From Parvibaculaceae bacterium PLY_AMNH_Bact1 (lineage in GTDB: Bacteria > Pseudomonadota > Alphaproteobacteria > Parvibaculales > Parvibaculaceae), in assembly GCA_032881465.1 (NCBI GenBank), contig CP126168.1, forward strand, positions 558,001 through 622,000: a DNA stretch of 64,000 bases, given 5' to 3'. Positions 46,763-52,127 of this stretch are shown piece after piece (within the stretch, counting starts at the first letter, position 1; the number at the start of each line of letters is the position of its first letter). Below the pieces are notes generated by a model, which was not told the origin of the DNA, did not search any database, and saw only the letters and a program-made list of their open reading frames with translations. The translations under genes were made by a program, and so were the position numbers.

Positions 46763-47722
46763 ATGTCCCTTCTTGAAGAACGCGCAACCTACAAGCCCTT
46801 CCGCTACCCCTGGGCCTATGACGCCTGGTTGACCCAGCAGCGCATTCACTGGCTGCCGGAAGAAGTGCCGCTGGCTGACGATGTGAAGGACTGGGCGAAG
46901 GTCCTGACCGAGGGCGACCGCAATCTCTTGACGCAAATTTTCCGCTTCTTCGTGCAGGCCGATGTGGAAGTAAACAATTGCTACATGAAGCACTATTCCC
47001 GTGTCTTCATGCCCACAGAAGTGCAGATGATGCTGGCGGCCTTCTCCAATATTGAGACGGTCCACATCTCCGCCTATTCCCACCTGCTCGACACCATCGG
47101 CATGCCCGAGACGGAGTATGAAGCCTTCCTCAAATATGGGGAGATGAAGGACAAGTACGACTATATGCAGGAATGGGGTGTGGAGACGAAGGCAGACATT
47201 GCCAAGACGCTTGCCGTCTTTGGCGCCTTCACCGAAGGCGTGCAGCTCTTTGCCAGTTTTGCCATCTTGCTCAACTTCCCGCGCTTTAATAAGATGAAGG
47301 GCATGGGCCAGATCATCACCTGGTCCGCGCGCGACGAGTCGCTTCACACAGAAAGTGCCATCAAGCTCTTCCGCACCTTCATTGAGGAAAACCCGGAGCT
47401 CTGGAATGAAGAGCTGCAGAAGGACATCTACAAGGCGTGCGAGACCATCATCACCCACGAGGATGCGTTTATCGATCTCGCTTTTGAAATGGGCTCGGTC
47501 GAAGGCCTCTCAGCAGAAGAAGTGAAAAGCTACATCCGCTGGATCGCCAATCGTAGGCTGACACAGCTCGGACTTCTCCCCATCTACCGGGTCGACAAGA
47601 ACCCGCTGCCCTGGATGGACGAAATGCTGAACGGCATTGAGCACGCAAACTTCTTTGAAAACCGCGCGACGGAATATTCCAAAGCCTCCACGGAAGGCAC
47701 CTGGGAAGAAGCGTTCGATTGA
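46763..47722 (+). CDS. nrdB: Ribonucleoside-diphosphate reductase class Ia, beta subunit
   Basis: 319 residues. Di-iron and radical residues: Asp67 (FFVQADVEV), Glu98, His101 and Tyr105 (NIETVHISAYSHLLD, with the Glu-x2-His-x3-Tyr spacing of E. coli 115/118/122), Glu158 (FTEGVQLF) and Glu192, His195 (ARDESLHTE). The tyrosyl radical generated by the di-iron centre drives NrdA. The C-terminal tail (STEGTWEEAFD) is the acidic peptide that docks to NrdA. It follows nrdA across the repeat pair. Just after it begins the convergent RloC-like gene, 27 bases from its stop. Confidence 0.96.
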   Translation: MSLLEERATYKPFRYPWAYDAWLTQQRIHWLPEEVPLADDVKDWAKVLTEGDRNLLTQIFRFFVQADVEVNNCYMKHYSRVFMPTEVQMMLAAFSNIETVHISAYSHLLDTIGMPETEYEAFLKYGEMKDKYDYMQEWGVETKADIAKTLAVFGAFTEGVQLFASFAILLNFPRFNKMKGMGQIITWSARDESLHTESAIKLFRTFIEENPELWNEELQKDIYKACETIITHEDAFIDLAFEMGSVEGLSAEEVKSYIRWIANRRLTQLGLLPIYRVDKNPLPWMDEMLNGIEHANFFENRATEYSKASTEGTWEEAFD

Positions 47723-47749
47723 GGGGTAGAGGCTACGGTCATTTTTTCA

Positions 47750-50041
47750 CTATTTGTTTAACCTTGCATAGTGATCCGGATCAAGTTTCTCAATAAGCAA
47801 CATCAATGCGACGGCGGAACGCTCAATTTCTTCTATCGTAGGCGTCGACCACTCTATCAGTCGGCTTAAGTCGTCAGAATGAGACTCAAGATGGACCAAT
47901 CGTGTTAGCGCGGACAACTCGGCGTTACTCAAGCCACTACCGGTGACAATTTCATGGGACATTTTGTCGGTGAAGTTCATTTTGGGGAGCTTAAACTCAA
48001 GGAAGAGTTCCAACACTTTTCTCATCGCATTTGGCAGAAGATAGAGAAACTGGAAATCGTGGCGAGGGTCGGAATCTAGATATTCGAGGACAATCGATAC
48101 TAGATACAAGTATTCGGAATCAGCAGAGCGAAGGAGCTTAGGAAGCTTCCGCAACCGGGACCTTCGATGGCCTGTTGTCGGGTCCTGCAGGGTCTCAATG
48201 AAGAAAAATCCGGCTTCAGGAGGTTGTCTTTTGTACTTTGGCCTTAGCCACTTTTTGACTTCGTTCATGAAATGCAGATGGTGGGTGAGAATGAAGACTT
48301 GCGACGCAGTTTCTGTATTCGCCTGAATCAAGCTTAGCGCATGACCAACAGAGCGAGTGTCCAAACTCGATACTGGATCGTCTAGCACAATGATCGAGTC
48401 AGAAATTTTTCTGTCTTGTTCCCTGAGTTTTACGAGAAAATAGCATAGCGCGAACGCCGTTTTTTCTCCCTCGCTTGGTGGTTGGGTGAGCGGCATTCCA
48501 GCGCGGATAATTTGATACCCAAGCTCGGCCGTTCTCAGTTCAAGTTGATTGTGGCCCAGGTATGCAGCCACGAGGGGGTTGATCGCCTCTGCTGCTGCCC
48601 CATGATTTCGCAACTTGGCTCTCAGACTTTCGACAGCTTCGGCAGACCTAACGTATAGCGTTTCCCTTCGTTCCAGCTCAGCGTCAGCCGCTGCCGCCGC
48701 GTCAGACAGTTGTGTGTATTCAGTGCGTTCACGTATTAGCAAGTGCCCCTTTACATCATCGGCTGCCAATTTCTTTGTCGTGCTAAACTTGTCAGCTTGT
48801 TCGTTGTGGTTTTCGATAAGGACATTGATGAGGGCTATCTGTTTGTCAGTTTCTTCTAGAAGCTGCGTGATTGCACTCCGCTCTTTATCGCTAAATGCGA
48901 CTAGTGCCCGATGTGGGGATGTTCTCTTTTCTCCCAACCGGCTGAGCGTTAGGTCCAAATACCCTTTAAGGTCATCAATGTTGGCTTCTAGGTGTGAGCT
49001 TTGCGTTTGAAACACTGCTTGTAGATCGGCGCTCAATTCTGCTGGTGATGGTACAGACAGTTGTAAGCGCTCCATGCTGCTACGCGCTGCAGCTGTGTTC
49101 TCGTCTGCCGTTTGCAAACAAGTTTCCTGTCTTTCAAGCCGCTCATCTATCGATGCCTCGAGTGAAGCGAGACGAGTTTGGGTCAGTTCGCTCCCACAAA
49201 AGAGGCAAGTGTTGAGATGTTTATCAGTGTGATATTTGAAACCTTGCTCTATCCACGGAACCATCAACATGTGTTCCGCCACGTCCTTCAGTGTCGATAC
49301 CGCGAGCGAAAATTTGCAGATTTCTGATGCGTTAGAGAACACTTCTTCTAGATTTTTGTGTTCAAGCATCACCTTTTTCAGTGTTGCCTGTTGTTCTACT
49401 TGGTTAGCAATCTTCTTCTTTGCCAAATAGGTCTCGCTGCTTAGCTCCGTGGTGCCCGAAAGCCCGCTGGCATAGTCAGTAGCGACATTGGTCCCCGTGT
49501 ATGAACGACCCAAGTTTAGTGCCTCGGCGACCTGTCGTCCGACATTACGTTTGAAAAGCGTGAGTTTTTCTTGAGTTTGTTTTTGCTGTTCAGCTGCAGC
49601 TTCCTTTCTGGTCCTCGCTACCTCTCTGTACTGTTCAACTCTCTCGACTGTTAAGGACAGACTTGTCGACTGAGCTCCAAAGAAAACAACTGGAGAGGCG
49701 TCGCCCATCTTCCAGCGAAAGTTGGCTTCAACGAAGTCATCGTTGAACACCGAGATTTTCTCCGATACCGACGCATTTTCGGTGCTGGAGCCCAGTATTG
49801 ATGAATCTGTTAGCTCCATTTGAAAGGAACCACCATCGGGCAGGTCTGCGTCCTTGTCTGAGCTTAGACATCTGAAAATCCGGGATAACGTCGATTTGCC
49901 GGTCCCGTTGAAGCCATAGATGAGATTGAATCTCAGAAAGTCTGGCGTGGCGTCATCGGGAACATAATCGGAAAAAACACCAGGAATTTGAGCTCTTTTT
50001 AGGTTTTTGAACAGTGGTTGGTCTGCCATGAGCGAGCACAT
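47750..50041 (-). CDS. RloC/PrrC-type AAA_13 ATPase, possible tRNA anticodon nuclease
   Basis: 763 residues. The N-terminus has Walker A at 43-51 (GFNGTGKST), a long coiled coil (about 135-500) interrupted by CLFC (Cys279 and Cys282), the zinc-hook motif of RloC proteins, then ABC signature PPSEGEKTAFALCYFL near 520, Walker B IIVLDDPVSSLD near 550 and His-switch LTHHLHFMNE. The C-terminal 150 residues end the ATPase head and continue in LPNAMRKVLELFLEF, with Arg674-x3-Glu678 resembling the Arg-x3-Glu of PrrC/RloC anticodon nucleases; His721 (ESHSDD) may be the third residue. Start could be 50029. Base use is more AT-rich than neighbours, suggesting transfer. No prr/hsd genes adjoin. Confidence 0.75.
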   Translation of the reverse strand: MCSLMADQPLFKNLKRAQIPGVFSDYVPDDATPDFLRFNLIYGFNGTGKSTLSRIFRCLSSDKDADLPDGGSFQMELTDSSILGSSTENASVSEKISVFNDDFVEANFRWKMGDASPVVFFGAQSTSLSLTVERVEQYREVARTRKEAAAEQQKQTQEKLTLFKRNVGRQVAEALNLGRSYTGTNVATDYASGLSGTTELSSETYLAKKKIANQVEQQATLKKVMLEHKNLEEVFSNASEICKFSLAVSTLKDVAEHMLMVPWIEQGFKYHTDKHLNTCLFCGSELTQTRLASLEASIDERLERQETCLQTADENTAAARSSMERLQLSVPSPAELSADLQAVFQTQSSHLEANIDDLKGYLDLTLSRLGEKRTSPHRALVAFSDKERSAITQLLEETDKQIALINVLIENHNEQADKFSTTKKLAADDVKGHLLIRERTEYTQLSDAAAAADAELERRETLYVRSAEAVESLRAKLRNHGAAAEAINPLVAAYLGHNQLELRTAELGYQIIRAGMPLTQPPSEGEKTAFALCYFLVKLREQDRKISDSIIVLDDPVSSLDTRSVGHALSLIQANTETASQVFILTHHLHFMNEVKKWLRPKYKRQPPEAGFFFIETLQDPTTGHRRSRLRKLPKLLRSADSEYLYLVSIVLEYLDSDPRHDFQFLYLLPNAMRKVLELFLEFKLPKMNFTDKMSHEIVTGSGLSNAELSALTRLVHLESHSDDLSRLIEWSTPTIEEIERSAVALMLLIEKLDPDHYARLNK

Positions 50042-50046
50042 CGTTT

Positions 50047-50073
50047 CTGTAAAACACTAGTCGTGTTTTACAG
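50047..50073. promoter_or_regulatory. Perfect inverted repeat in front of the RloC-like gene
   Basis: CTGTAAAACAC (50047-50057) and GTGTTTTACAG (50063-50073) are 11-base perfect arms around TAGTC, ending five bases upstream of the first ATG of the minus-strand gene. TATACT on the minus strand (50077-50072) abuts it as a -10 candidate. It could be an operator or a stem-loop in the mRNA that hides the start. Confidence 0.65.
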
Positions 50074-50195
50074 TATATTTACTCAGCTCTGAAACCAGCG
50101 TTCGTTACCGGGAATGGGATCACAGACATAATCAAAGATTCACACGCGTTGCGGTGTGTTATTGCTCTTCCCGCGAAGTGGCAGGCTGCTCCCGA

Positions 50196-52127
50196 TCAAG
50201 GCGTGTACCAGATCGGCGATGAATAAGCGCGTTCCTGGATCGTGGCCGGGCCTTCGTAGGGCGTTGGTTGCCCGAGCGCGACGGCATCTAATTGCGAATG
50301 CCGGATGGTCGGGATTTGCAGCACCCGCACATAATAGAACGCCCGTTCACTCGCATCGAAACTGGGGTCCGTCCACACGGTGGAGAATTCCGCCGCCCCG
50401 ATAGAGTTTTCAACTGCACCCGTCTGAATGTCGACCGTGTTTCCGACCGGCGGCAGCTTGCCGTCGGCGCCCGGCACCCGATCATCGGACCAGGCCACAT
50501 CAAACACCTGCTCATGTGATTTGCCGTCCGCGTCCACCCAGCCTTTGATCACCTGCACCCGGTCAAGGTTTGCGTCCATCGGGTCCTTGGTGGCCCGGAT
50601 GAGAAGCTGAACGCCTGCGTCTTCGGGCGCGGCACTCAGGTCACCGCCCATAGGTACACCGCCCGCATAGCCGACACCTGCAAGGTCCGTGGCTTCGGCA
50701 GCAGTTGTGTCATAGTTCCAGCCGCCAAACACACGTAGCGTCATGCGCGGGCCGGTGGTCGCATAAGTCTCCCGGCGCGTGAAGGCTTCGAAAATGCTCT
50801 CGCGTGTGTTCTCTTCCGCCCAGACAGCGGCCAAGCCCTGCGCGGAATAGTTCCAGCCGTCAAACGTATCGACGCCTGGCTCATAGCCATCGTCCAGATC
50901 GATCGCGTCTTCGGTGCGCTTGTTTTCCGGGATGGAGTCTTTCCCCATCTTGCCCCAAAAATTGGGTTCTTCCGCAGACGCAATACTCGTATGCGCGTCC
51001 GTCGAGCCAATCACCCCAAACTGGTACGGGTTCACCCCGATTTCCTGTTCAATCTCGAGGCCGCGCCGCAGACCGGATCGCATGAAGTCACCAACCGCTG
51101 CCTGGAAACTGCCGCCCTGCGGTTTGTTCTGCAGATAGAAGTTGAACGGCTCGAAGCCTGCAAACTCATCATCCGGCGACAAAGAAGGCGCCGTCTCGGA
51201 GTCGCCCTTCACCTGTGTCACTTCAACAATCGGCTCCCACTGTGCCCGGGTGCGGGCGAACTCTGCTGTGATGGGTTCGCCATTCAAGCGCGTGGCGCTG
51301 AACATGTAGCCCTTGGAGAGATTGGAATTATGCGGGATCGCCATAAAGCGCGCGCCGGTCTCTTCCTGCAGCGCGGCAAGGCCTTCCCAAAGCTGATGCG
51401 GGTAGGGCGCTTCGCCGGAGCCCACCGGATCAATACTCGCGGCCTGCTCTGCGTTCAAAGTCGACATGACGACGCGGTGGAGGTTCACCCCATTATTCGT
51501 CTGGGTCCATTCCCATCCGATCATGGGTGAGAAGACGCCGGGCTCATAATGCGCGTCGGCAGCGGCAACAGAGCGGCCCCACATGTCCGCGCTGATGGCG
51601 TCGGCCACATCTTTCGGGATGCCGACCACATCGCTCACGGAGATGTTTTGCATGCCGCCGGAGACGACTGGGTCTGCCGTGTCGCCGGGCTCGATCACAT
51701 GCGGCGCGAAACTGCTGACCACACCGGTAAGGTGCGCCGGTTTATCAATAGTGTCGCGTAGGCGGCCAAGCGCGAAAGTCGTGAACCAGCGCTGCCAGAA
51801 CCAGGCCTCATCCATCTCAGGATTGGTACGGAAGATTTCGCCAATGACGCCAAGGGATTCCGCATGGTCCGCCACGACAAGAAAATCGAGCGGCCGTTGC
51901 AGCTGGACCCGCACTCGGTTGAACGGGTGCACCACCGGCTCACCTTTGGCAAGGCGATAAGCCGTGTCCGGGTCGGCAGTCCGGTTCCCGGCAATAAAGG
52001 CATCGGTGGAATAAGACGAGTGAAGATGGGTGTCGCCCCACAGTAGCTGCGTATCAGCGGCGTGGCCGATGGTCGATAGGCTTGTGCTCGCAAGCAGGGT
52101 TACGGTCAAAAATGTTCGGCGCATCAC
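50196..52127 (-). CDS. DUF3604 family secreted protein (PHP-like metal-dependent)
   Basis: 643 residues with a signal peptide (TFLTVTLLASTSLSTIGHA). The start of the mature part, LLWGDTHLHSSYSTDAFIAG, has the metal-binding His-x-His and Asp of PHP-type phosphoesterase folds, as do FLVVADHAESLG, SPMIGWEWTQTNNGVN and NPYQFGVIGSTDAHTSIAS. C-terminal part: ATTGPRMTLRVFGGWNYD, VQLLIRATKDPMDANLDRVQ, and RAFYYVRVLQIPTIRHS. DUF3604 proteins are secreted and predicted metal-dependent hydrolases; the substrate is not known. The downstream RloC-like gene on the same strand starts 154 bases after its stop. The upstream gap to the reductase pseudogene is 120 bases. Confidence 0.88.
   Translation of the reverse strand: MMRRTFLTVTLLASTSLSTIGHAADTQLLWGDTHLHSSYSTDAFIAGNRTADPDTAYRLAKGEPVVHPFNRVRVQLQRPLDFLVVADHAESLGVIGEIFRTNPEMDEAWFWQRWFTTFALGRLRDTIDKPAHLTGVVSSFAPHVIEPGDTADPVVSGGMQNISVSDVVGIPKDVADAISADMWGRSVAAADAHYEPGVFSPMIGWEWTQTNNGVNLHRVVMSTLNAEQAASIDPVGSGEAPYPHQLWEGLAALQEETGARFMAIPHNSNLSKGYMFSATRLNGEPITAEFARTRAQWEPIVEVTQVKGDSETAPSLSPDDEFAGFEPFNFYLQNKPQGGSFQAAVGDFMRSGLRRGLEIEQEIGVNPYQFGVIGSTDAHTSIASAEEPNFWGKMGKDSIPENKRTEDAIDLDDGYEPGVDTFDGWNYSAQGLAAVWAEENTRESIFEAFTRRETYATTGPRMTLRVFGGWNYDTTAAEATDLAGVGYAGGVPMGGDLSAAPEDAGVQLLIRATKDPMDANLDRVQVIKGWVDADGKSHEQVFDVAWSDDRVPGADGKLPPVGNTVDIQTGAVENSIGAAEFSTVWTDPSFDASERAFYYVRVLQIPTIRHSQLDAVALGQPTPYEGPATIQERAYSSPIWYTP

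Follow-up and report, generated by a model that had tools for sequence, protein, structure and literature searches.

We find that the gene at positions 47750–50041 of the window (the whole 64,000-nucleotide stretch of DNA that was analyzed, from Parvibaculaceae bacterium PLY_AMNH_Bact1) very likely encodes a stand-alone ATPase and anticodon nuclease of the RloC type, which we predict to serve in defense. Its place in the RloC family, a family already known, is firm as judged from the sequence. Sequence and structure models together give the protein an SMC/Rad50-like ABC head, a coiled-coil insert with a CxxC motif, and, at the C-terminus, a helical domain bearing the RloC/PrrC triad and an Rx6H motif. 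Cleavage of tRNA by this protein, and its triggering by DNA breaks or phages, would follow the RloCs that have been studied. The initial annotation had proposed a stand-alone defense gene acting through translational shut-off, and the family matches and motifs described below favor this as the best reading. The open reading frame list places the gene on the minus strand with an ATG start; its features are as follows.

47750..50041, minus strand: rloC-like gene, 763 aa (open reading frame; Pfam AAA_13, 391 bits; PADLOC PDC-S06, 473 bits; 77 full-length relatives)
49892..49915, minus strand: Walker A GFNGTGKS, residues 43–50 (N45, G48, and K49 identical throughout alignment A2, which has 66 rows)
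49196..49207, minus strand: CLFC, predicted zinc hook, residues 279–282, in the loop between the helices of the coiled-coil insert (both Cys in 77/77 relatives)
48461..48481, minus strand: ABC signature PPSEGEK, residues 521–527 (S523, G525, and E526 invariant in A2)
48359..48394, minus strand: Walker B and D-loop IIVLDDPVSSLD, residues 550–561 (D554, D555, P556, S559, and D561 invariant in A2)
48281..48286, minus strand: switch T586-H587, with the linchpin histidine (T586 and H587 invariant in A2; H587 in 77/77 relatives)
47753..48136, minus strand: C-terminal helical domain, residues 636–763, predicted HEPN-type RNase (model pLDDT 87.0; VIA and Foldseek comparisons)
48020..48022, minus strand: R674, first triad residue (76/77 relatives; rank 3 of 124 C-terminal columns)
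48008..48010, minus strand: E678, second triad residue (58 Glu and 19 Asp of 77; rank 17 of 124)
47900..47902, minus strand: R714, Arg of the Rx6H motif (of 77 relatives, 41 have Arg and 26 Lys; rank 32 of 124)
47879..47881, minus strand: H721, third triad residue, preceded by S720 (His in 76 and Ser in 74 of 77; rank 4 of 124)

The position of the reading frame, the Walker A, CLFC, signature, and Walker B motifs, and the residues R674, E678, and H721 are all present as the initial annotation had described them, and the AAA_13 profile search it suggested returned a full-length match (residues 30–741, against a cut-off of 36 bits) that is far beyond chance. In the 3.74 Mb genome no other protein exceeds the AAA_13 cut-off, a weaker match of 35 bits lying near 2.15 Mb. 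The candidate family PDC-S06, for which the PADLOC library gives no curated cut-off, matches with 473.3 bits, aligning residues 12–762 with positions 4–735 of 740. Among the 25 NCBIfam matches listed there are only families far below their cut-offs, nearly all of them ATP-binding proteins; a phmmer search of PDB sequences with the rloC protein gave one weak ABC match (E 0.092), and a search of the same sequences with a C-terminal profile gave two chance-like matches.

The published description defines RloC as an ABC ATPase that carries a coiled-coil/CXXC insert and, toward its C-terminus, Arg-X3-Glu-X36–52-His, often with Ser before the His; the proteins measure 658–897 aa, and 8 of 73 are linked to type I or III restriction–modification (R-M) systems (Davidov and Kaufmann 2008, PMC2610378). 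Each of these traits is found here: the triad reads R674-X3-E678-X42-H721 with S720 preceding the His, the insert carries CXXC, the length is 763 aa, and no R-M gene lies among the eight neighbors scanned. The third triad residue had been called uncertain on account of the His spacing, a caution that can be dropped: the yardstick is the RloC range of 36–52 and not the PrrC distance of 32, and the 42 residues between E678 and H721 fall within it. In Geobacillus RloC, replacement of R692, E696, or H737 by Ala abolishes tRNA cleavage, according to the same source.

The label "RloC/PrrC-type" survives in its first half, through size, hook insert, and spacing, and loses its second. A PrrC held silent by a type I restriction enzyme would share the triad, and the PADLOC PrrC model does reach 43.7 bits, with its best stretch (523–616) in the ATPase part only; PrrC lacks the hook insert, though, and is about half the size of the query, and the genome holds no HSDR_N match at E ≤ 0.001, so that a type I enzyme is unlikely to silence this protein and the PrrC reading as a whole has a negligible probability. 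For type I enzymes (HSDR_N), the same search bears out the earlier claim that the gene lacks the restriction system PrrC needs. In an RloC the missing R-M linkage is ordinary; HSDR_N was also absent from 14 of the 40 rloC genomes searched (covering 40 of 80 loci, in genomes of unstated completeness), several of the 26 positives being weak. The kinship of the two C-termini is visible in a profile–profile comparison (probability 97.3, E 1.7e-11) in which R674, E678, R714, and H721 lie opposite R-x3-E and R-x6-H, motifs carried by each of the eight PrrC rows used.

Conservation was assessed in two sets of relatives. The first comprises 24 sequences, namely the query, 16 from genomes, 6 from plasmids, and 1 from a phage, with L001, L018 (self), L019, and L035 excluded and the PrrC loci L027–L034 aligned separately. 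Both Cys and the Arg are present in 24/24, with Glu in 21 (2 Asp, 1 Ala) and His in 22; L011 and L023, deposited as RloC, lack the His and are both poorly aligned there. For the second set, a contig scan with the single rloC protein gave no relative, and a scan with the profile of alignment A1 plus Walker A and B patterns gave at least 404 loci, from which the best 80 by similarity to the query were taken. Only Walker A and B patterns and overall similarity to the query thus decided which relatives entered the set, and the C-terminal motifs played no part of their own in the selection. In the 77 full-length members of the best 80 (L062, L070, and L076, with broken frames, excluded), C279 and C282 occur in 77, R674 in 76, S720 in 74, and H721 in 76; column 678 holds 58 Glu and 19 Asp, and column 714 holds Arg in 41, Lys in 26, and another residue or a gap in 10. 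Counting the query, 77 rows possess both Arg and His, and in these the distance from 678 to 721 is 35–47, the value 35 belonging to L065, whose end is poorly aligned; L088 stops before the His and has Trp at column 674. Against a median commonest-residue frequency of 0.33 over the 124 C-terminal columns, R674, Y644, and H721 tie at 0.99 (R674 ranking third and H721 fourth), and E678 ranks only 17th because of the Asp rows. The initial annotation had staked its reading on close relatives keeping Arg, Glu, and His; R674 and H721 are indeed retained, as is E678 or an Asp in its place, and the reading is unrefuted.

Full-length relatives among the best 80 of at least 404 loci are at most 36–37% identical to the query. 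Alignments A2 and A3 use 65 of the 77 relatives, A2 having 66 rows; in the tree, from which L065, L088, L126, and L011 were left out, the query sits on a long branch (1.28) whose nearest kin are alphaproteobacterial. This long branch, the lone position of the gene, and the broken copies seen in relatives would suit a decayed or repurposed, inactive copy, which we consider improbable in view of a 763-aa frame that is open and carries every residue invariant in A2. The pieces of the broken copies L062, L070, and L076 themselves still keep both Cys, the Arg, Glu or Asp (Asp in two), and the His, and the C-terminal piece of L070 is 44% identical to the query.

The acidic column of the triad shows a pattern of its own. 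Asp at 678 falls in the 17-row clade holding the query in 12 of the 19 cases, including most of the nearest relatives, and well-supported branches of the tree force at least nine changes between Glu and Asp. The Glu is needed in the RloC enzyme that was studied, as far as the published account goes (PMC2610378), and 19/77 relatives have Asp in its place; such natural variants would probe the catalytic triad.

RloC is sparsely distributed, being found in 2 of 40 genomes of the order, 6 of 385 of the class, and 11 of a phylum sample of 398 (E ≤ 1e-30 for class and phylum; own genome included). The RloC of the second genome of the order is 25% identical to the query and belongs to another RloC subclade. 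RloC-like genes also occur on plasmids, with matches in 151 of 72,556 records, of which 113 are predicted to be conjugative; some of the plasmid loci L020, L021, L024, L025, and L026 have McrBC-, RadC-, or TIR-type genes nearby. In four Streptococcus prophage records there is a distant relative under the deposited name "translation-disabling ACNase."

In the whole-protein structure model (mean pLDDT 88.1), a helical insert at about residues 123–477 splits the ATPase, and CLFC lies between helices 258–273 and 288–297; the placement of the domains relative to each other is unsure, as pTM is 0.57. The head aligns with Rad50 (5da9_B; Z 17.1, rmsd 4.9, 288 residues aligned), and the 50 matches listed, SMC and Rad50 heads along with ABC-transporter ATPase domains that score about 15, span Z 17.3 to 14.8. 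Foldseek likewise ranks Rad50 best (E 2.3e-7, TM 0.23). A DNA-repair ATPase of the SbcC/Rad50 type, having no nuclease of its own, would show just such a head, coiled coil, and CxxC hook. That the window protein is one is nonetheless very improbable: it has an additional C-terminal domain with invariant Arg and His, no SbcD/Mre11-like gene occurs among the eight neighbors scanned, and the PHROG match to SbcC reaches 34 bits against 168 bits for a family of unknown function.

The 128 C-terminal residues were also modeled alone (pLDDT 87.0). The best VIA match of this model is a HEPN toxin (8xdj_A; Z 8.1, rmsd 3.6, 110 aligned), at a Z score that helical bundles can reach by arrangement alone. 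Of the first 31 VIA matches (Z 8.1 to 5.1), 13 are named HEPN or HepT/HpeT and 6 are Csm6, Las1, or AbiV, where we take Csm6 to be a HEPN protein; the remaining 12 are uncharacterized proteins, toxin–antitoxin pairs, and nucleotidyltransferases, and below Z 5 the matches are mostly unrelated bundles. With Foldseek the best E value was 0.21, two FAT domains ranking first and a HEPN protein third, and a viral structure library gave nothing below E 0.33. Pfam assigned AAA_13 to all 66 C-terminal pieces, and there is no HEPN family among the 25 of 44 families listed. For the structure prediction that had been proposed for this region, HEPN proteins are the nearest folds, at modest scores, and the reading is again unrefuted. 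A 2013 survey assigned the RNase domains of RloC and PrrC to the HEPN superfamily, with the motif Rx4–6H (PMC3710099). The VIA ranking of the model agrees with this assignment without deciding it, and the query carries the motif as R714-x6-H721.

In the RloCs that have been studied, the published accounts describe a Rad50-like part that silences the RNase, DNA breaks and ATP hydrolysis that free it, and excision of the tRNA wobble nucleotide (PMC2610378, PMC3710099). For the window protein, whose anatomy is described above, we infer each step of action by analogy with these enzymes. The RNase would be kept silent by the Rad50-like part; DNA breaks, for instance upon phage attack, together with ATP hydrolysis would release it; it would then excise the wobble nucleotide of a tRNA; and translation would stop, halting the growth of the phage or of the damaged cell. 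By analogy with Rad50, two protomers may be joined through the zinc hook. An RNase with the RloC fold and a HEPN domain could instead cut another RNA (a different tRNA site, mRNA, or rRNA). HEPN domains hit varied targets, according to the 2013 survey (PMC3710099), full-length relatives among the best 80 of at least 404 loci are merely 21–36% identical to the query, and Asp replaces Glu in 19/77; still, triad, spacing, and hook match the values published for the anticodon nucleases studied, and we regard a different RNA target as unlikely. Anticodon cleavage of the RloC type is the reading we retain.

The gene was described as solitary between ordinary genes and richer in AT than its surroundings, and both statements hold: nrdB lies on one side and a DUF3604 gene on the other, and its GC of 0.484, where the window as a whole has 0.56, is lower than in any other stretch of 2,292 bp sampled at 100-base intervals. 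GC at third positions is 0.508, compared with 0.645–0.75 in four neighbors. Pfam found no defense genes among the eight neighbors scanned. The borders of the region, and a palindrome before the start codon, are as follows.

46763..47722, plus strand: nrdB, left border of the slot (Ribonuc_red_sm, 258 bits; DNA homology with five relatives ends at 47722–47726)
50196..52127, minus strand: DUF3604 gene, right border of the slot (DUF3604, 743 bits; homology with three relatives resumes at 50193–50196)
50047..50073, no strand: perfect inverted repeat with 11-bp arms and a 5-base loop, its end 5 bases ahead of the ATG; a candidate for an operator or for a hairpin in the leader

Homology with the five relatives breaks at the nrdB stop codon; in the three that have DUF3604 there, it resumes at the stop codon of that gene. 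None of the six other genus members whose genomes were searched, one of them 88% complete, has a match to rloC. The gene is AT-rich and absent from these genomes, and homology breaks at both of its borders; this fits a horizontal origin, and the gene probably entered in this way a slot behind nrdB that holds cargo across the genus. The slot could be read in six genomes of the genus, our own included; in a seventh, G008, only 418 bases separate nrdB from the contig end. The contents are as follows.

Own genome: rloC
G003: genes of 114 and 351 aa, GC 0.49–0.50
G006: gene of 373 aa, GC 0.48
G005: DUF2441, HTH, reverse transcriptase, and NTase-HEPN genes, GC 0.42–0.53
G007: GIY-YIG gene
G004: gene of 256 aa, within a stretch with Ns

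Four of the six slots end at DUF3604 on the far side. In G005, the PADLOC models HTH_VI (99.5 bits) and RT_VI (259 bits) match, which we take from their naming to denote a type VI retron, so that this cargo is a probable type VI retron (RT and HTH). As a control outside the genus, where 29 genomes have an nrdB match, we examined 20 of these. In the 18 that were readable (the flanks of L133 and L138 being too short) other genes lie behind nrdB, and of those that begin within the first 5.2 kb none is listed with a GC below 0.55, apart from one reading frame running off the start of L131 that has no GC value; the control is rough because gene families were not scanned there and these genomes look richer in GC.

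Several cargo genes deserve mention. The 256-aa gene of G004 (L045:2540-3307), of unknown function, recurs at 72% identity in a different nearby place in G003 (L043:5418-6167), and is probably mobile cargo. Of the two genes in the G003 slot (L043:8430-9826), the 351-aa product matches phrog_7003 with 62.7 bits and the 114-aa product has a weak likeness to Mrr_N below the cut-off. A small gene without a counterpart in the window adjoins DUF3604 in G006 (L044:5223-5675) and G007 (L047:4106-4498).

The palindrome before rloC (CTGTAAAACAC-5-GTGTTTTACAG) is the sole copy in the 3.74 Mb genome, allowing up to 3 mismatches, and its arm was not found in the slot regions of five relatives. Leader and gene start fold better than shuffled sequences (z -4.9; 1 of 200 as good). 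The same palindrome scores as terminator-like on the plus strand; 7 such sites were found and 3.1 expected. No promoter-like sites were found, with 1.7 expected. It may be an operator, a hairpin limiting translation, or chance. RloC is predicted in the published description to be expressed at a low level (PMC2610378). We also considered a conserved leader palindrome, and the idea is unsupported: of 78 upstream regions, 7 contain a palindrome of at least 9 bp, that of the window among them, and the sequences differ. This share exceeds that of base-shuffled sequence (1.7%), and in L087 and L097 palindromes of 11 bp lie 35 and 60 bases ahead of the reading-frame start; there may be a looser tendency toward palindromes upstream of rloC relatives.

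A tentative further reading, which we hold to be possible but doubtful, combines two proposals: that the slot is a defense slot of the genus in which AT-rich modules are swapped, and that rloC is held down by the unique palindrome before its start codon. The defense-slot part draws on two of the six contents, RloC and the probable retron. If it is right, new anti-phage genes may be present in the unnamed cargo. The variable slot is a lead to further defense genes. In one open-access library we found no publication joining nrdB, "defense island," and "hotspot." Established knowledge of RloC is unchanged by these findings, which add an intact-looking member with alphaproteobacterial nearest kin and quantify the conservation of hook and triad.

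Compared with known systems, the window protein resembles Rad50, SbcC, and SMC proteins in its head fold and coiled coil; Rad50 and SbcC are without the C-terminal region of RloC in the published comparison (PMC2610378), and the query has a C-terminal domain. HEPN RNases (HepT, Csm6, Las1, and AbiV) give the nearest structural matches to that domain and have Rx6H in common with it, but Z is modest and no Pfam HEPN match was seen for the C-terminal pieces among the families listed. With PrrC, the R-x3-E, Rx6H, and TH switch align, whereas PrrC as described has no hook insert, measures 341–416 aa, belongs to a linked type Ic R-M locus, and has a Glu–His distance of 32. PDC-S06 of PADLOC covers nearly the whole protein at 473 bits; it is a candidate label whose description, in the part consulted, gives no mechanism, and a PDC-S06 locus forms one table entry in a 2024 study of Streptococcus thermophilus (PMC11514479). 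A 2025 study of the same species lists RloC itself among defense systems without testing it, in the part cited (PMC12322248). Activity has been described for RloC proteins of Geobacillus and Acinetobacter, and it is with these (Geobacillus kaustophilus and Acinetobacter baylyi), compared by their published description, that the query shares architecture, triad pattern, size class, and the rarity of R-M linkage, its Glu–His spacing being X42 against X40 in the G. kaustophilus protein (E696–H737).
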